Translations under genes and position numbers: made by a program | Source of the DNA: Candidatus Altimarinota bacterium | GTDB lineage: Bacteria; Patescibacteriota; Gracilibacteria; BD1-5; UBA6164 | Reading direction: 5' to 3' | Assembly (NCBI GenBank): GCA_027066455.1 | Contig: JAMONT010000053.1 | Coordinates: 1-34,178 of the forward strand | DNA length: 34,178 bases | The notes under the pieces: generated by a model | The model's database searches: none | The model's input: the letters and a program-made list of their open reading frames with translations, nothing else | Told to the model about the DNA's origin: nothing | Shown: one piece after another, positions 2,569 to 25,960 of the stretch | Position numbering within the stretch: the first letter of the stretch is position 1 | Layout: each line of letters begins with the position of its first letter

Positions 2569-2880
2569 TTAGGCTATAGAAAGTATTTCTAATTTAGTAA
2601 CACTTGCCCTAAAACCTCTATTTTTCATATGTCTTTTTTTAGATTTCATTTTAAAAACTCTAACTTTTGTATCTAAAAGTTGTTCTGTAGCTTTTAATTC
2701 AACCTTAGAACCTGAAACTGTAGGAGTTCCAATTTTTGTATCTTTACCTTCTTCATCAGAAATAAGTAAAGCTTCTGTAGTAATAGTTTTTCATACTTCT
2801 ACATCTTGTTTTTTAACATCAATAATATCACCTTTTCTTACGATAAATTGATTTCCTCATAATTCAATTACTGCTATCAT
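2569..2880 (-). CDS. rplU: 50S ribosomal protein L21
   Basis: 103 residues, ATG at 2878-2880, TAA at 2569-2571; the normal length for bL21. The N-terminus MIAVIELGGNQF matches the family's (M)YAVIxxGGKQY opening, and the basic block KMKSKKRHMKNRGFR matches the conserved rRNA-binding loop (K...KRRK..RR..GHRQ). The first Gly of the GG pair is TGA. Only two of eight Gly codons are TGA, fitting a highly expressed gene in this genome. L27 (rpmA), its usual partner, is not adjacent; tRNA-Gln lies upstream on the same strand. Confidence 0.93.
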
Positions 2881-5512: not shown

Positions 5513-6739
5513 ATGACAAAAATAATAAAATCTGAAAGAGAATTAGAAAGTTTGCAAAAAAATTTGGAATATACTAATAAAAATTTAAAAGTTTTTATTG
5601 CTGATATTTTGCCTCAAAAATGTTGCACAAGAGAAAATATGGAAGATAGAATGCTTGAAATGGAAAGTTTGGTGAAAACTTTTGGTTGAGTCGTAATTCT
5701 TGAACATGTACAAAAAAGATCATTGCCTGATTATAATACTTATATTGGAGAATGAAAATTGGATGAAATGATTAAAGAAATGGAAAATTTAGGAGCTAAC
5801 TTACTTATTTTTTGAAATATTTTAAAATCTCATCAAATCTATAAAGTTAATGAAAAATTGAAAAAAATATGAGCAAAAGCTTGGGATAGAGTAGATTTAA
5901 TTTTAAAAATTTTTGAGAAAAATGCTAAAACTAAAGAATCAAAATTGCAAATAGAATTAGCATCAATAAAACATATGTGACCAAGAATTTTTGGTATGTG
6001 AATGGAATTATCTAAACAATGAGCCTGAACTTGAACAAGATGAAAATGAGAAACAAATACTGAAATAATGAAAAGGCATTTGAGAAAAAAGCAGGAAAAT
6101 ATAAAATCTCAGCTAGAAAATTTTAAAAAAGTGAGAAAGTTACATAGGGAAAGTAGACAAAAAAAATGATTAAAAACAGTATGAATAGTTGGTTACACAA
6201 ATGCTTGAAAATCAACTCTTACAAATATTTTAACAAAAAAATGAGTTTTAGTAGAAGATAAACTTTTTGCAACTTTATGAACAAGTGTTTGAAAAATGTT
6301 TATTTCATCAGAAGAATTGTCTGAAAAATTTAGAAAAAAATTTAGAATTTCAGAATATAGGTGACTTGAAATTTTGGTAAATGATACAATTTGATTTATT
6401 AGGGATTTACCTCCAGAGCTAATTAAGGCCTTTGCTTCAACTTTGGAAGATTCTATAGAATCAGATATTTTAGTGCATGTAATTGATTCTTCTGACCCAA
6501 AAATAGAGGAAAAAATAGAAGTTGTAGAAAATATTTTAGAAAAAATTTGAGCAAACAAGAAAAGAATTTATGTTTTTAATAAGATAGATTCCCTATCTTC
6601 TGGAGAGGGGGATTTAGAGATTGAAAACTTTATAGAAGATTTAAAAGAAAAATATTCTTCACTAAATCCTATTTTTATTTCAGCTTGAAAAAAATTAAAT
6701 ATAGAAGAATTAAAACAAAGAATTTTGGAAGAGTTATAA
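5513..6739 (+). CDS. hflX: GTPase HflX
   Basis: 408 residues, ATG at 5513, TAA at 6737-6739; typical length. HflX binds ribosomes and 50S subunits and rescues or splits stalled ribosomes under stress. Seen: the N-terminal HflX domain (LPDYNTYIGEGKLDEM), the Gly-rich linker GAGTGTRGKGET before a coiled coil, then a G domain. The G domain has G1 GYTNAGKST (about 231-239), G3 DTIGFIRDLP (about 291-300) and G4 NKID (about 356). I count 21 of its 28 Gly codons as TGA, including the G1 loop Gly preceding Lys; this gene alone demonstrates the UGA=Gly reading. A short gap leads to a lipoprotein gene. Confidence 0.95.
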
Positions 6740-11242: not shown

Positions 11243-12643
11243 ATGAGAGCATTGCTTTTTATTTTATCCTTTGTTTATAGTGCTATATTCTATATATTTT
11301 ATAGACTTTCAGAGAATAAAGATATTTTTTGAGAATATTTTGTAAACCAAAATTATTTACAAAATTATTCTGTTTTACAAATAGATACTTTTTTTCCAAT
11401 AAAAAATTATTTTATTTCTATAAGTTGATGATTATTTATAGAAAGTATTTGATTTTTATTCTTATGAATAATATTTATTTATTACTTTTCTTTCTCAAGT
11501 GGAAGCCAAAAAGTAGAAAGTAGACAACTAGACAATTTTGAGGAAACACAAGATTTTCAAGATTTAGAATTTTATGAAGAAAAAAGAAAAAATATTTTTA
11601 AAGATGTATTATCTTTAGAATTTTTTAAGGAAAAAATTATGTATTTTTTAAGAGAGTTTTCAAAACATATTTGAATAATTTTATTTTATTTTTCTTTATT
11701 TTTATTTTCTATTTATTTTGAAATAACTTTTGCTTATTTTCAGTTTATAATTGGGTTAATAGTATTTTTATTATATTTTGGTTTTAAGAAAAATGATTTT
11801 TTTGTAGAATTTTTTCATATCAATTCTTCCCTTTTTTCAATTTATTATATTATAAGTTATTTAATTATTTTTTTTACAGATATTAATTTTTTATGATTTA
11901 TAGATTTTTTGAATTGTCTACTTATAGTTTTTTCATTTATAATTTTATTTATTCATTATAAAAATTTAAAAGCTACAAAAATAAAAAATTATATATTTGT
12001 CCACTTTAGTGTCTACTTGTTTCTTTCCTTTATATTCTACATTAGCTGGTATTTTATTTCTTTAAATATTTTATTTTGGTTGTCTATATTGTCTACTTTG
12101 TTTTCAATATTTTTCTTTGATATTTTTCCAAAAATTTCTTATTTTTCTATTAATATTTATTTAAGTAGATTACTTTCTATATGATTTTTATATTTTTGAA
12201 TTTTGACTGGAATTTTGTATTTAATGTTTTCTTGATATTCTAGTTTTATTTTTATTTGTTTGATAATTTCTTATTTTTTTAATTTATATATTCATTATAA
12301 ATTTCAAAATTATGTTTCATTTATTATCAGTTTATTTGTCTGAACTTTTTTAATTTATTACACTTTTTATCCAAATATTATTTATGTAGAAGATATTAGT
12401 TTTCTGATATTTTCAATATTTTTTTCTTCATTTTTGATTTTTACAACTTATATTTATAAGTTTAAATATATTTATGATTTTTATGTAATTCACACTTATG
12501 CTTTTTTAATAAATTTAATTTCTGTAATAATTTACTTTATTTTTAATGATTTTTTATTATTATATGTTTCATTACTTTTATTTGTTGAATCTATTTTCTT
12601 TTTTGCAAGTTTTAATAGGTTGAAAAATATAGGAAAAAAATAG
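11243..12643 (+). CDS. Polytopic membrane protein, 466 aa, unknown
   Basis: ATG at 11243, TAG at 12641-12643. Two N-terminal hydrophobic helices and an acidic cytoplasmic loop (about 90-130, with EFYEEKRKN) precede about ten further hydrophobic segments rich in Phe, Ile and Tyr. No transporter, polymerase or flippase motif stands out; O-antigen-ligase-like or sensor-like roles are possible but unsupported. The gene contains three closely spaced TAGACAA/TTGTCTA pairs (11521, 11999, 12082), an unusually high density. Several TGA Gly codons lie inside the helices. Confidence 0.65.
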
Positions 12644-15653: not shown

Positions 15654-18600
15654 CTACCACTTCTCCCCTATCCATTTTTCCAAATTTTCTAGAGAATTTA
15701 AAGAAAATTTTGTATCAATTTTTTGTCATTTTAAATTTATAAAGATTTGAATTTGTCCACTTGTATGTCCACTTAGAAAAGTCTTTAAATCCAGTAAATC
15801 TGCCTTTTTTGCTTTTTGTGGAATTTGTATTATAAATTCTTTTATGTCTAGTTGTCTATTATCTATTATTTTAGAATTTTCAATTTTTTCTTCTAATTTT
15901 TTACTAAAATTTTCTTTATAAATTTCACATTTATTTTCTTGAGCTACTTCCCTCTCCTGTAGGGGAGGGACTGAGGGAGGGGTTATTTCATTTAACTTCA
16001 AATTCAAAAATCTTTTATTGTTATCAAATAATCATAAATCGAAAGATTGTTGTCTAACTTGAGAAATACTAGCAACTTTTATATCTCTTGCTTGAATTGA
16101 TTTTCTATTATATTCAAAATTTATAGACAAATTTCAGTTAATAATTATTACTTTATCTATTTCTAAACTATCAACATATTTTTCTATATCTCTTGGAAAA
16201 ATAACTACCTCAAAATCATAATCAAATCATTCACATTTCAAAAACATCATAGTTTTTCCTGTTTTTGTTATTATTTTTCTAATGTCTTCTATAACTCAAA
16301 CAGCTGAAATAACTTCTTCTTTTTCCTTTTTCTTAGGCTTTTTTTCTTTTTTTTCTTCTTTTTTGTCTAGTCACATTTTTTCTATTTCTTCTACTTTTTC
16401 TTCATATTTTTCAGGATTTTCTTTTTTATCTAATTCTAATAATTCTTCCATTGACATTTTTAATTTTTTTGTGTTGTTTGATCTTCTAGCACAATATTTT
16501 CATAATCAATCTAGAGGGTGTCCTGAAATTCTAAAACCAAGCATTTCCTTTTCTCAAGCTAGTTTTTCTTCAAAAGTAAAATCAGAAACTTGCTTTAATT
16601 TTAATTTATCATCTTCTATTTCTACTCACATCATTTCAAAAAGTCAAATTTGAGTAGTTTGAGATTCTTTTTCTTGTCTTTTTACAAAATTAATCATATC
16701 AGGAATTGAAGCAGAAAGTTGTCCTCTTTCTCAAAGTCAGTCCATTGCTCCTGCTTTTATAAGAGCTTCTAGAGATTTTTTATTAATTACTTCTTTTCAT
16801 ACTCTTTTTATAAAATCTTCTAAATCAATATATTCATTTTTTTCTTTTTTTGTAGCCCCTTTCTCCCTATCAGGGAGAGAGGATTCAGGAGAGAGGGAAT
16901 TTTTCCTTGCTTCTATAATTTTTTCTATTGGTCAGTCCCCTATTCATTTTATTGCTTTTAATCAAAATCTAATATTTTCATCATTAATATAAGTAAAATG
17001 TTTCAAAGATTCATTAATATTTGGAGCTAAAACATTTATTCATTTTTCTTCTGCTTCTGCTACTTCCATAACAATCCTTTCCATATTATCTTCATCAGAA
17101 GTCATTACAGCACTTAAAAATTCTGTTACATAATAAGCTTTTAAAAATGCTGTTTGATAGGCAATAAGTGCATAACAAGCTGCATGGGATTTATTGAATG
17201 AATAGTTTGCTGCTGGTTGAATCATTTCTTCATAAATATATTTTGTTACTTCTGGTTTATATCATCTATGTTTTTCTCCTTTTTCAATAAATTCTTTTTT
17301 CAAAGCTTCAATAACTTCTATTTTTTTCTTTCAAATTCACCTTCTAAGTAAATCAGCTTCTCAAAGAGAAAAACCTGCCATATATTGAACTATAAACATT
17401 AATTGTTCTTGATAAACTGCAATTCAATAAGTTACATCTAAAATTTGTTTCAAATCTTTTTCAAGTAAATTTTTTTGCTCTTCTATAACTTTATTATCAT
17501 ATCAAGCTTTATTCATTATTTCTATTAAATCAGAAGTCATATATTGTACTGCTTCCCTACCATATTTTCTATCAATATAAGCTGGAATATAAGCTAAAGG
17601 TCCTGGTCTATAAAGAGAAACCATTGCAATTAAATCTTCAAAAGAGTCAGGAGCAAGGTCTATCAGATATTTTCTCATTCATTCAGATTCAAACTGAAAA
17701 ACTCATGTTGTATCTCAAGCAGCAAAAATTTTGAAAACTTTTTTATCTTCTAAATTTATTTTTAAAATATCTAATTCAATATTTTTTTCTTTTTTAATAA
17801 TATTTTGTGTTTTTTTGATAATAGTCAGATTTCTAAGTCATAAAAAATCCATTTTTAAAAGCCCTAAATCCTCTAAAGGATAAGCAGAATATTGTGTAAT
17901 TATAGAAGTATTATCTTTTGGAGGATTTTGCAGAGCTGTAAAATTGGTCATTGGTTCAGGAGCAATTATTACAGCACAAGCATGAACTCAAATTTGTCTA
18001 ACATTTCCTTCTATTTTTAAGGCTGAATCAATAATTTCTTTATATTTGATAATTTTTCCAGTTTGTTCATCTTTATAAAATCAGCTGTCATAAGCTTCAC
18101 CAAATTCTACAGAATCTTGTAAAGCTCATTTTAATTTTGTTCAAGGTTTTTCAGGAATTAAAGAAACTAAGCTATTCATTATAGAGAAGGGAACAGCATG
18201 TACTCTTCAAACATCTTTAACAGCAGCTCTAGCAGCAAAAGTACCAAAAGTACAAATTTGTGCAACTTTGTCAGCTCAATATTTATTTCTACAATATTCT
18301 ATAACTCTATCACGAGAATCATCAGCAAAATCAGTATCTATATCAGGCATAGATACTCTGGCAGGATTTAAAAATCTTTCAAAAAGTAATTTGTAGGGAA
18401 GTGGGTCTATATCAGTTATACCAGACAAAAAAGCCATTAGGCTTCAAGCAGCAGATCATCTTCAAGGTCAAACTGGAATATCTTGAGTTCTTGCCCAATT
18501 TATATAATCTGCAACAATTAAAAAATATGCATTAAATCACATTTCGTGAACAACAACTAATTCATACTCAAGTCTGTCTACTTTGTCTACTATCTCTTTG

Positions 18601-19736
18601 TCTAGTCAAGACAAGATTTCCTTTTTCTCATCAGAATAATAGGTTATAGACAAATCTTTTAATTCCTCTGGAGAAGTATCTGTTAATTTTTTTTCAAGTC
18701 AAGGTTTGTCTAATTTTTCTACTAATTTAAAAATAGTTTTCTTCTCAATTTTATAATCATATCTCCAATTTAATCATTCAAAAGATAAGTATCTCAAATA
18801 CCATTCATCACTTGATAATTTTTGTATTGTTTTTTTATCTTTTTCCAATTCTTGAGCTTCTTTAAAAATTTTTTCATCTTTTTCTGGTAGTTCAAATGTT
18901 GGAATTAAAACTCATCAAGTTTCTATTTTTATATTTATCATATCAGCAATTTTTTTTGTATTTTCAAGTGCTTCTGGAATAAATCAAAATAAAGTTTGCA
19001 TTTCTTCTTCGGTTAAAAAAGAATAATCTCAGTTAATTAAAGTTGGTCTATCTGGATTTTCTATTTCATGACCTGTTCAAAGAGCTTGAATAACATCTTG
19101 TGTTTTTTTATCAGTTTTTTCAACATAAAAACAATTATTTGTTGCAACTACAGTAATATTATTTGCTTTAGAAATTCTAATTAATTCATCTGTTATAAAA
19201 TTTTGTTTTGGAATATCATTATGATAAAGTAGTTCTAAAAAATAATTTTCTCTACCAAAAATTTCTATATATTCTCCTATTCTGTCTACTATGTCTACAT
19301 CTGATTTTCCTGATAGAATAAAGAAAGGTATCTCTCAGTCTTTATCTCAACTTAGACATACAATATCTGAGTTTTTGTCTACATTCAATTTTAAAGTTTC
19401 AAAAGAAATTTTTGATCATTTTTCACTTTCTAAAGAAGATTTTGTAGTTAAACGAATTATATTCTGATATCATTTTAGAGACTTTGCTAGTAAAACTAAT
19501 TTGTGAGAAATTTTTGGATCTATAATAGATTCTATAAAAATTTCTGTTCATAAAATAGGAGTGATTCATTCTTCAATACATCATTTATAAAATTCGTGAC
19601 ATCAATGCAGATTTCAAGTATCAGTTATAGCAACAGCACTCATTTTTAGTTCTTTTGCTTTTTTTATATAATCTTTTGGTTTTGCAAGTCATTTTAAAAT
19701 AGAAAAATGTGTGTGGTTATGTAAATGTATAAACAT
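15654..19736 (-). CDS. dnaE: DNA polymerase III alpha subunit
   Basis: 1360 residues, ATG at 19734-19736, TAG at 15654-15656. The replicative polymerase. Order: N-terminal PHP domain ([13 protein letters not shown], then AVAITDTGNLHG); polymerase core with [14 protein letters not shown] (Asp465 and Asp467 region) and a third Asp in MDFLGLRNLT (about 630); [42 protein letters not shown]; then a helix-hairpin-helix region and an OB fold ([12 protein letters not shown]). It is about 200 residues longer than E. coli DnaE. Part of the excess is two in-frame GC-rich palindromic elements at about 947-966 and 1252-1263, both between core domains. VD or LD dipeptides from TAGACAA motifs occur several times. 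Many catalytic-core Gly are TGA. Confidence 0.96.
15755..15858. repeat. TAGACAA-type motif pairs inside dnaE
   Basis: GTCCAC at 15755 and 15767 (12 nt apart), and GTCTA at 15846 and 15854 (8 nt apart), within the 3' part of dnaE. They are read as ordinary codons. Confidence 0.5.
15947..15983. repeat. GC-rich palindromic element inside dnaE (copy 2)
   Basis: A CTTCCCTCTCCTG...CAGTCCCTCC-type GC-rich tract in a region otherwise about 80% AT, read by dnaE as [14 protein letters not shown] (about residues 1250-1263). It lacks any frame disruption. Related in style to the other CCCTCTC elements but more diverged. Confidence 0.6.
16837..16898. repeat. GC-rich palindromic element inside dnaE (copy 1)
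   Basis: On the gene strand: CCCTCTCTCCTGAATCC, then CTCTCCCTGATAGGGAG and AAAGGGGCTACAAAA. The CTCCCT...AGGGAG arms form a hairpin. Read in-frame as [19 protein letters not shown] (about 947-966). The same core recurs in the intergenic array at 25656-25960, and the 3' arm with its A-rich tail recurs in the murL-like gene in the same frame. Confidence 0.75.
18576..18605. repeat. Triple GTCTAC/G motif in dnaE
   Basis: GTCTAC at 18576, GTCTAC at 18585 (9 nt later) and GTCTAG at 18600 (15 nt later). On the gene strand the tract is read as [11 protein letters not shown]. Another pair with a 9-nt period lies at 19284-19298. Confidence 0.55.
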
Positions 19737-21445: not shown

Positions 21446-24400
21446 ATGAATGTATTAAAAAAAGTTGTTGCTACTACAGCATTGGTTGTATTAGCTTCAA
21501 GTGTGGTTGTTTCTGGAGCTAATGCTTCAACTCAAGCACAAGTTGCTGCTGCTAATGAATTAGCTGCTGAAAAAATAATTAATGATAACTCAGCTAATCC
21601 TGCTGGATATAAATTAGATCAATTTGTATTAAGACAAGAAATAGGTGCTGTTGTTAGAGGTATTGCAAAGATAGATAAAAAAGCTACTTGTGATAACTTA
21701 TTTTCAGATGTTTCTGCTACAAATCCAAATACTTGGGCTTGTTATACAGTAGAAGCTCTTAGAGATAGTAACATAATTGCTGCTAACCCTATGTTTAGAC
21801 CAGAAGCAAAAATAACTCAAGCTGAATCTGTTGGTATGGTTGTTAAGGCTGTTTATGGTGATAAATATTCTTATGATGCTGCAAAAGGAACAACTTGGCA
21901 AGAACAAGTAGTTGCATTTGCTGTTGAAAAATCTATTGTAAATAGTTTTACTGATTATAATGCTTTAGCTACTAGAGGTTTTGTATTTGAAATTGGTGCT
22001 TCTGCATTAAAATGAGGTTCAGTTACTACTGCTCCTGTTAATGATAGTAAAGATGATGATTTTCAAAAATTATTATGTCAATTAGATCCTTCTAGTTGTA
22101 CTACTGATACTCCTGAAACTCCTGTAGAAACTTCAGAAACTCCTGAAACTTCAGAAACTCCTGAAGCTTCAGAAACTCCAGTTTCTTCTTCAGAAGCTAA
22201 AATTGTAGTAAATTCTGAAACTCCAGAAGCTTCAACTATTCCTGGTTGAGTTGATGGTTTACCAGTATTAAAATTTGATATTACTGCTGGAAGTGAAGAT
22301 TTAACTGTTAAAAGTGTTACTCTTAAAAGAAATGGTATTTCTGATAAAGATACTTTAAGTGGTTTAGCTTTATTTACTGATGAAGGTAGAGTATCTAAAT
22401 CTAAAAATGATTCTCAAGGGAATGATAATGAAGCTGATGTTACTTTAGATAATGGTGGTACAGTTGTTAAAGCTGGTGAAACTACTACATTTACAGTTGT
22501 TGTTGATGTTAATTCTATAGCTTCTTATTCTGATGTTGAAGCTGATGAATTTGCTATTGAAGTAAAAGATATTAATACTTCAGGTGATCTTACAGCTACT
22601 AATATTGTAGGTGAAACATTTAGAGTTGGTTCTAGAGATGCTGCTTCAGTAACTATTAGTGCTGATTGAACTGTTTCTAATCCTAAAATTGGTGAAAAAG
22701 ATGTTGATATTTTCAAATTTAAAGTTGAAGGTGCTGATGATGAAGATGTAGTATTAAAAACTATAACTTTCAAATCTGATTCTTCTGATGCTGAAGATAA
22801 TTTAGAAAATGTTACATTAAACTTTAATAACAAAGTTGTTTCTAATGGTGTAATTAATGGTAAATATATTACTTTTGATTTATGAGATGGTGTTGTTGTT
22901 AAAGAAGGAAATAATGAAAGTTTTGTTGTTTCTGCTGATATTGTTTCTGGTGCTACTGATATTTTAAGATTTTATGTTGATAAAAACTTAGATGTTACTG
23001 GTATTGGTCAAAAATATGGTTACGGTTTATCTGTTACTATAACTGCTGCTGATGATGCAGGTGAATTAGGTGCTATTACTATTCAAGCTTGAGAATTATC
23101 TCTAGTTTCTACAGATGCTCCTTATGATAAAATTAGATCTGATAAAAATGATGTTGAATTAGGTTCTATTACAGTTTCTAATAAATCAGGAAATGATTTA
23201 GAATTACAAAAATTTGCTATTAATATTACTACTACTCAATCAGGTGTTACTGAAGTATTAGAAAATGTTAAAGCTGTTATTGATGGTTCTAGTTATGATT
23301 TAGAAACAAATGCTGCTTCTACTGCTATGACTGCAAGTTTTGCAGATGATGATTTAAACATTGCTTTAAATTCAGGAGATGTAGTAATTAAAATAATTGC
23401 TGATACTAAAAAGAATTTAACTGCTGGTACAGATGTTACTATCTCTCTAGCAATTAATAATACTACTTTTTATGTTGAAGAAACTGATGATGATAAAGCG
23501 GTTAGTGATATAACTCCTTCTTCACTAAGTTTTAAAAAATCAACTGTTATTGCTGCTAGTGCTTCTGTTTCTAGAACTCCACTTGCTAACACTACTGTTG
23601 TTAGAGGTGCTCTTGATTTAGAGGCTATGAAATTTGAAGTTACTGCTGATGAAGCTTCTGTTGTAGTTATTGATGAAGTTGTTGCTAGATTAAACACAGT
23701 TAATTCTGCTGTTATAACTACAACTCCTGCTATTTCTACTACTTCTACTACTTATACAATAGCTTCTGTAAGTGCAGGTATAGGTGATTTTATTAATGTA
23801 AAAAAATGAGCAACTGATTTAGCTGCTTATAATATTACAAATATTACTGATTTAGCTAGTGATGAATTAGCTACAAAAATTACTGGTGCTACAGATGGTG
23901 CTGGTGTAGTTACTTTAGTTAGTAATGATGGTGTTATTACTGCTACTATTGCTGATGGTCCAGATACTAATAATAGTCAAGCTATAAATGTTACTTCTAC
24001 TCCTACTATTACTAACACTTCAACAGCTACTTTAGCTGGAAATGCTGTACCTGGTCTATATTCAATAACTGTTGGTGGTACTTTAAGAAGTTATACTTTT
24101 GTTACTAATGATACATTAGAAAACATAGCTACTGGTTTGGTTTCTGCTGAGCCTTTATGTTCTGCTTCAGGAAAAGTAATTACTTGTACTAATACTGGTT
24201 TACTTGCTGCTGTAACACTTACACTTCCTGTTGTTCCAGCTTCTACAAATACTGGAGTTGCTACTAATAGTGAAATTTCAAAAATTGCTTTATATCAAGG
24301 TACTACTTTATTAGATGAAGTTTCAGGTTCTGATCTTTCTAATGGTACAGTTACATTTAATGATTTTGATGATATTAATATTGCTGCTAATGCTACAGAA

Positions 24401-25549
24401 GCTTTTAGTATTAAAATAGATGTTGTTGATAGTGTTGATGCTGTTGCTAACTCTCCAATTACTGCTTCTTTAATTAGTATTTCTGCTAAAGATGATGATA
24501 ATGATGATGTTATTGTTGTTAACGATGATGGAATTAATAATAATGGTAATGATGAATTAGGTTCTACTCCAATTATTGCTCCATTTGTAGTAAATATTTT
24601 AACTTCTAATAAAGCTATTGCAGTTACTAATGCTGGTGTATTAGCTGTTATTTATGATACTAATAATGATGATAATGAAGATCCTAAAACAGTTTTAGCT
24701 GGTTCTTCTCAAGTTGTTGGTTCAGTTGATGTTCAAGCTACAAATGAAGAAATTGATGTTGAAACTGTTATTTTTACAGTTAATACAGATTTAACTTCTG
24801 CTATAACTTCTGCTTCTCTATATTTAGATGATTCATTAGTTGCTACTAACTCTAGCTCAGATATTTCTTCTACTCAAATTAAATTTGATAATTTAACTAA
24901 CTTAGTAATTCCTGAAGAAACTGCTGAATTAAGATTAGAACTTAATACTGCAAATATAGGTTACCAAGAAGTTGGTAAAACTATTATAAATGCTCAAATT
25001 ACTAATGTTGCATTATCTGATTTAGATGGTGTACAATCTGGAAAAACTGTTGCTAATGTTAATGCTGGTACATTTACAGGTGAATTCTTTTCTATAGTTC
25101 CAGCTACAGTTACTCCTTCTATTGTTTCTACTTTTGGAGGTGAATCTAAAGTTAAAATTACAGTTGATACTGGAACTAATAAACAACAAAATTCTAATAG
25201 TACTCCTGTTGCTTCAATTGCTACATTAACATTTTCTGAATTAGGTAATACTCTTGCTGCTGACTATGCTACTGCATATGTTATCTATAAAGATGGTGAT
25301 TCAGCTAATCAAGGAGCTTGTACTAATGATGGAACTACTGTTGTTTGTACTTTATTAAGTGCTGTTTCTATTAATAATGATGAAACTTTTGTTGTTAAAG
25401 CTCAAGGATCTGTAAATATAACTTATGCTCTTAAATTACAAAAAGATGGTGTAAGCTATACTACTTCTAATACAGATGTTAATAATGGTGGTCTTACATT
25501 TACTTCTAATATGACTGATGAATTAGACCTTGGTTCTAAAACTTATTAA
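21446..25549 (+). CDS. Large secreted S-layer-like surface protein
   Basis: 1367 residues, ATG at 21446, TAA at 25547-25549. Signal peptide 1-27 (LKKVVATTALVVLASSVVVS, then GANAS). Residues about 50-185 form an SLH-like region (CDNLFSDVS, ALRDSNIIAANPMFRPEAKI, TQAESVGMVVKAVYG) that would bind the wall. A low-complexity Thr/Pro/Glu/Ser linker follows (about 218-256). The rest is repeated beta-sandwich modules rich in Thr, Val, Asp, Ala and Ser. Alternating VKAGETTTFTVVVDV-, VVKEGNNESFVVSADI- and ANATEAFSIKIDVVDS-type blocks mark repeated domains. No catalytic motif. Codon use differs from other genes: Gly is nearly always GGT or GGA, with about six TGA among 91. It is probably the main cell-surface protein and highly expressed. 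Confidence 0.85.
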
Positions 25550-25593: not shown

Positions 25594-25627
25594 AAAAAAG
25601 ACTTATCCTTTTGGATAGGTCTTTTTT
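25594..25627 (+). terminator. Intrinsic terminator after the S-layer gene
   Basis: A6-GACTTATCC, TTTT loop, GGATAGGTC-T9: a 15-bp stem with one G-T pair and a long T-run. Confidence 0.85.
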
Positions 25628-25655
25628 TTTGTGTTTTGTTTTTTTCTGTATTTTT

Positions 25656-25960
25656 TTAATTCTCTCTCCCTTTTATCACCCTCTCACCTGAATCCTCTCT
25701 CCCCGATGGGGAGAAAGGGGCTGCATTGTAATAAGTTTTGCTTTTTAGTGGAAAACTATTATTATTGTTGTTGTAATTAACTATGAGCCTCTTTCTCTTT
25801 CCCCTCTCACCTGAATCCTCTCTCCCCGTTGGGGAGAAAGGGGAACAGTAATTAATTTTACTTTTTAATGGAAAACTATTATTGTTGTAATTAATTTTGC
25901 AGCCTCTTTCTCCCTGCAAGGGAGAGAGAATTCAAGAGAGAGGGAAAACTTAGGGAAGAA
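25656..25960. repeat. Array of three GC-rich palindromic elements
   Basis: Two direct copies (from about 25678 and 25800) share CCCTCTCACCTGAATCC, CTCTCTCCCCG(A/T)TGGGGAG and AAAGGGG, each followed by an AT spacer with TTTT(A)GTGGAAAACTATTATT. A third, inverted copy (CCCTGCAAGGGAGAGAG, then AATTCAAGAGAGAGGG) lies at about 25913-25947. The direct copies are about 122 bp apart and their spacers are also conserved, so element plus spacer was duplicated as a unit. No convincing gene; the open minus-strand frame merely reads the repeats. Confidence 0.8.

Follow-up and report, generated by a model that had tools for sequence, protein, structure and literature searches.

Avoidance of the reassigned glycine codon UGA in an S-layer-like gene and in translation genes of a bacterium in which UGA is the majority glycine codon

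In ordinary bacterial codon bias, GGT, GCT, ACT, and GTT are concentrated in the genes of elongation factors and ribosomal proteins. A related phenomenon, concerning former stop codons, has been described in the eukaryote Blastocrithidia, in which UAR encodes Glu and UGA encodes Trp. There, the reassigned stops are depleted in the genes of cytosolic ribosomal proteins and become scarcer as protein abundance and codon adaptation increase, with support from mass spectrometry (PMC12153298). In the ciliate Oligohymenophorea sp. PL0344, the reassigned UAA and UAG codons are likewise used less in highly expressed genes; in this case transcripts were measured, other codons and amino acids are concerned, and the highly expressed genes are also GC-richer (PMC10553269). 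Among bacteria, code 25, with UGA read as Gly, is known for Absconditabacteria and Gracilibacteria (PMC8629427; PMC4032931), and the genome considered here is of the same kind, with tRNA-Gly(UCA), no RF2 found, and TGA at glycines. The searched parts of these two papers contain no discussion of UGA use in relation to expression, and no report of expression-linked UGA avoidance in UGA-Gly bacteria was found in the literature within reach, most subscription papers being outside its scope. The avoidance described below is therefore of a known kind, but it is a new instance with a twist: here, in contrast to Blastocrithidia, the organism is a bacterium, UGA encodes Gly, most glycines of the genome are encoded by the very codon that is avoided, and the evidence consists of codon counts. 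When compared to ordinary bacterial codon bias, the preferred codons are the same, whereas the most disfavoured one is a former stop codon favoured by mutation.

The source assembly (1.49 Mb in 102 contigs, 20.8% GC, estimated completeness 97.7%) contains the window, i.e., the whole 34,178-nt stretch analysed, as contig 53. A simple dicodon caller gave 1,303 genes genome-wide, missing a few (e.g., window positions 11243-12643). Code 25 applies to this genome, as indicated by TGA at glycine positions, the presence of tRNA-Gly(UCA), and the failure to find RF2. At glycines conserved with E. coli orthologues, TGA is used in 710 of 1,269 cases. The search for RF2 with the model TIGR00020, which was positive in 10 control genomes, returned only RF1, below the curated cut-off, from this 97.7% complete assembly. 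Across the 1,303 genes, TGA makes up 18,557 of 26,296 Gly codons (70.6%), GGA and GGT accounting for 13% each; it is the ordinary glycine codon of the genome. The features of the window discussed below are collected in Table 1.

Table 1. Features of the window, with positions counted from its first nucleotide.
Feature	Position	Strand	Observation
rplU (ribosomal protein L21)	2569..2880	-	TGA 2/8 Gly
hflX	5513..6739	+	TGA 21/28 Gly, the genome average
dnaE, low-expression comparator	15654..19736	-	TGA 57/81 Gly
S-layer-like gene, 1,367-residue secreted protein	21446..25549	+	Codon counts (see text), weak SLH match, signal-peptide-like N-terminus
In-frame TGA, codon 190	22013..22015	+	Column poorly conserved, Gly in two relatives
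In-frame TGA, codon 268	22247..22249	+	GGN Gly in about half of relatives
In-frame TGA, codon 408	22667..22669	+	Most relatives with Gly
In-frame TGA, codon 480	22883..22885	+	About half of relatives with Gly
In-frame TGA, codon 549	23090..23092	+	All relatives except one with Gly
In-frame TGA, codon 788	23807..23809	+	Most relatives with Gly
Strong intrinsic-terminator-like hairpin, 3' of the S-layer-like gene	25594..25627	+	15-pair stem with a T run behind it

The gene that drew attention to the phenomenon encodes a secreted protein named S-layer-like on account of its signal-peptide-like start and of a single match to the SLH domain (residues 86-127), which at 19.9 bits lies below the cut-off of 20.8. 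A paralogue of its N-terminal domain passes this cut-off with 25.4 bits; no PDB relative of the protein was found. By exact count, its 91 Gly codons comprise 6 TGA, 17 GGA, 67 GGT, and 1 GGG. This TGA share is the seventh lowest among the 871 genes that have 10 Gly or more, where the 1% quantile is 0.10. The binomial probability of at most 6 TGA in 91 Gly at 70.6% is 5e-38, a value that is too optimistic because TGA shares differ among genes (overdispersion 2.3). Opposite five of the six TGA codons, between several and most of the relatives have a GGN glycine; these five therefore truly encode glycine. On a codon index that leaves out glycine and was trained on ribosomal genes, the gene ranks 6th of 1,241; the codon bias therefore extends past glycine. 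From this codon use the gene is probably highly expressed, and the strong terminator-like hairpin behind it is in line with such expression. Past the hairpin, window positions 25655-25700 are pyrimidine-rich, with repeated CTCTC/CCTCTC.

Relatives of parts of this protein within the same genome show a different glycine codon use. Sequences related to the C-terminal domain (residues 937-1367) lie within C15_9668_14743, and in the aligned parts TGA is found at 29 of 49 glycines of the latter vs none of 28 in the S-layer-like C-terminus (P 2e-8). This second gene (L016:9668-14743, plus strand) encodes 1,691 residues, carries two copies of the S-layer-like C-terminal region, and has a normal TGA count (79/118 Gly). 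Nor is TGA avoided in short paralogues of the N-terminal domain, whether in this genome or in relatives.

The avoidance of TGA is not restricted to one gene, and it is tied to translation genes. The lowest shares include those of S2 (0/12), L7/L12 (1/13), L10 (2/12), EF-Tu (4/36), a type IV pilin identified by its N-methylation motif (1/17), EF-Ts (4/14), EF-G (17/57), and S1 (13/33). When pooled, elongation factors use TGA for 23% of Gly and ribosomal proteins for 47% (227/484). Among 20,000 random draws of 45 genes each, taken from genes of 60-300 residues, none came down to the latter value, the lowest having 58.5%. Shares are near the genome mean for RNA polymerase (0.60), chaperones (0.62), tRNA synthetases (0.65), replication and repair (0.69), and ATP synthase (0.72), the expression classes being assumed from gene identity and these genome-wide tests concerning one genome. 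When codons with at least 5% share were ranked by z score, TGA came out as the most strongly avoided codon and GGT as the most strongly preferred one in all three sets considered: the S-layer-like gene, the ribosomal genes, which form an independent set, and a set of elongation factors with L12, L10, and S2, which was picked from genes already low in TGA and is not independent. GCT, ACT, and GTT are raised together with GGT, i.e., there is a general preference for NNT.

These data bear on the sequence-only reading of the window, which had proposed that UGA is a slow or error-prone codon avoided in highly expressed genes and usable as an internal expression index. Its counts for the S-layer-like gene, rplU, and hflX (6/91, 2/8, and 21/28) proved exact on recount; as contrast genes, however, hflX is merely the genome average and the eight codons of rplU overstate the ribosomal effect, given the pooled 47%. 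Its expectation that the TGA share, computed for all genes, should go with the ribosomal or translation class is confirmed (47% vs 70.6%), and codon counts genome-wide and across the order strongly support avoidance in genes for which high expression is expected. The proposed index holds at the extreme top and fades elsewhere. Among 848 non-ribosomal genes the rank correlation of TGA share with the non-glycine codon index is -0.10, real but weak; only the top decile of this index clearly deviates (TGA 0.58, GGT 0.25), and neither chaperones nor ATP synthase stand out. The TGA share is thus a top-end flag for expression, not a scale. A bactofilin-like gene (L037:12298-13422, contig C34, minus strand), possibly a recent transfer, has 2 TGA and 21 GGA among 35 Gly and differs from the highly expressed genes in showing no preference for GGT; therefore, a low TGA share does not by itself imply high expression. 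The combination of high GGT and low TGA marks expression better.

The same avoidance recurs across the order, over families with widely differing baselines. The comparison covered 77 genomes from three families and 34 genera, each relative being represented by few genes. In ObgE of these genomes, UGA use ranges from none to nearly all glycines. With at least five TGA required in ObgE, and with EF-Tu and ObgE taken to have constant totals of 36 and 44 glycines, the TGA share of EF-Tu was lower than that of ObgE in 45 of 45 informative genomes (Wilcoxon P 5e-9), which are akin to one another and so are not independent trials. The gap between both genes on the logit scale, obtained for the 39 of these genomes that have enough UGA, has a median of 2.25 and is independent of the baseline, even where the latter reaches 98%. 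Homologues of the S-layer-like gene, counted exactly, have TGA shares of 0.00-0.16, compared to 0.12-0.82 for DnaE and ObgE of the same genome, and are lower in 17 of 17 cases. A contig scan with EF-Tu yielded one named genome clearly using code 25, a Candidatus Gracilibacteria (L262, JAQUEK010000001.1), which has TGA at 17 of 41 glycines in EF-Tu and at 56 of 67 in the longest neighbouring frame. At the other end, four genomes of one family (G003, G004, G013, and G029 of family f3) have ObgE without TGA, and each carries a tRNA-Gly(UCA) homologue; these are lineages that barely use the reassigned codon.

UGA is decoded in this genome by a tRNA-Gly(UCA) at L004/C3:12686-12764 (plus strand). 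According to the glycine identity criteria taken from PMC8629427, its G1:C72, C2:G71, G3:C70, and U73 qualify, and the CCA end is encoded. This tRNA has no normal D arm, the loop being without GG, and contains a U-G pair in the anticodon stem; it was missed here by the general tRNA model of Infernal and is the lowest-scoring tRNA in one relative (G064, 45 bits). Most relatives yielded a single copy, and the sequence is nearly invariant across the family. Over 79 bases it is identical in 12 of 30 loci and differs in the rest at two or four sites, the variable sites falling in three pairing positions (4/72, 54/66, and 31/45) with compensating changes. These features suggest a poor but constrained decoder, perhaps since its U34 must not read UGG. 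tRNA-Gly(UCA) and tRNA-Gly(UCC) are present in one copy each, and the difference between UGA and GGN is therefore not a matter of gene dosage. No tRNA-Gly(GCC) was found among the 31 tRNAs of Infernal, all of them also given by ARAGORN, an absence that is provisional with 31 kb of the assembly masked. The Ala, Pro, Thr, and Val boxes are also served by single U34 tRNAs, the Val tRNA being in two copies. In Mycoplasma, tRNA-Gly(UCC) reads all four GGN codons and favours A and U endings (PMC10853795), which fits the use of GGT and GGA here but not that of GGT over GGA. GGT is nonetheless strongly favoured over GGA in the presumed highly expressed genes, although the sole ordinary tRNA-Gly found is UCC.

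We propose, with a probability of about 0.75, that translational selection acts against a mutationally favoured UGA in a mutation-selection-drift balance, and that the cost of UGA is one of efficiency. AT mutation pressure at 20.8% GC would make UGA the default glycine codon, and translational selection would strip it from the few genes that hold most ribosomes, where GGU above all, and after it GGA, would take its place. UGA is read by the single-copy tRNA-Gly(UCA) with its unusual D arm, and GGN by one ordinary tRNA-Gly(UCC). The cost would most likely arise from slow or supply-limited decoding, not from mis-incorporation or drop-off; that UGA is decoded more slowly, with the tRNA as cause, is what we infer. 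Against this proposal stand the weak link outside the top genes (rho -0.10), the ordinary shares of chaperones and ATP synthase, and the fact that a UCC anticodon does not predict GGT over GGA. A further step is tentative: if U34 of tRNA-Gly(UCA) could misread UGG, the clade might keep one aberrant, near-invariant tRNA, leaving UGA slow and abundant proteins rewritten to GGU. Were such a trade-off real, a finished code change would still bear a lasting cost that could be read off throughout the clade.

Several other explanations have to be considered. Base composition, or a local mutation bias toward G at first positions, might lower TGA, and the GC content of positions 1 and 2 of non-glycine codons does account for more of the ordinary variation in TGA share, which falls as this GC rises (rho -0.42); moreover, the S-layer-like gene is at or near the top of the genome in this GC content. 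However, the share predicted from the GC of its non-glycine codons is 0.55 vs 0.066 observed, and in a joint model with composition the translation-gene term keeps a z of -5.2. A bias from T to G should also not lower third-position G, which in this gene drops (GTG 0.01 vs 0.04), and the near-minimal GC3 of the gene likewise speaks against such a bias. Composition as the cause was therefore rejected and is very improbable. A recent origin of the gene in a standard-code donor, with UGA yet to be acquired, is even harder to credit. Low TGA would be expected of such a gene, but this one contains six in-frame TGA, has a GC3 of 3% (about the 0.3 percentile, near the genome minimum), and shows native, extremely optimised codon use; its homologues in the genomes of the family are equally low in TGA, and EF-Tu and ribosomal genes behave likewise. 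A limited contig scan with the protein gave no match at all, and in particular no close standard-code homologue. Foreign origin, which according to the sequence-only reading would have undone its claim, is thus rejected.

The remaining alternatives concern the kind of selection. UGA might be avoided for accuracy and not for speed, if it is mis-decoded (e.g., with tRNA-Trp(CCA) inserting Trp) or leads to drop-off. Proteomics of a related BD1-5 bacterium reportedly gave rare non-glycine peptides at UGA (PMC4032931), and confusion of UGA with UGG through wobble is a known hazard (PMC8629427). However, conserved glycines are encoded by TGA about as often as variable ones (0.559 vs 0.578; Mantel-Haenszel OR 1.03, Z 0.25), and the result is also null within the DnaE, ObgE, EF-Tu, and S-layer sets. 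No trend of TGA along genes was seen, so that drop-off was rejected as well. The TIGR00020 search, in which RF2 was not found, and the anticodon stem of tRNA-Trp(CCA), apparently normal with five pairs, also speak against accuracy, which we set aside as the cause and regard as unlikely; the "error-prone" part of the sequence-only reading is accordingly not borne out. With accuracy and along-gene costs unsupported, elongation efficiency remains. It could also be argued that highly expressed genes are selected for GGU alone, a situation met with in many bacteria, and that UGA is a passive loser without cost relative to GGA. GGT is indeed the most preferred codon, and the rise of GCT, ACT, and GTT fits such a preference. 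However, the ratio of TGA to GGA also falls, from 5.3:1 in the genome to 0.35:1 in the S-layer-like gene and 0.67:1 in EF-Tu. In 24 genomes of the order the TGA:GGA ratio is lower in EF-Tu in 22, while GGT:GGA is higher in 23, and the shift of TGA is far larger than that of GCA, ACA, or ATA. Selection of GGU alone is thus somewhat less plausible still than selection for accuracy.

The data suggest that a completed bacterial stop-to-sense reassignment, in which the new codon is the commonest for its amino acid, still costs translation. The clade, with its ObgE baseline ranging from none to nearly all, offers a graded natural set in which selection on a reassigned codon could be measured. Where uncultured bacteria have no proteome, genes low in UGA and high in GGU flag likely abundant proteins, such as the S-layer-like protein, the pilin, and secreted proteins of unknown function. 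Two secreted proteins without a Pfam match (L094:11965-12633 and L006:8970-9692) combine low TGA (2/23 and 2/15) with high GGT and are candidates for abundant surface proteins.
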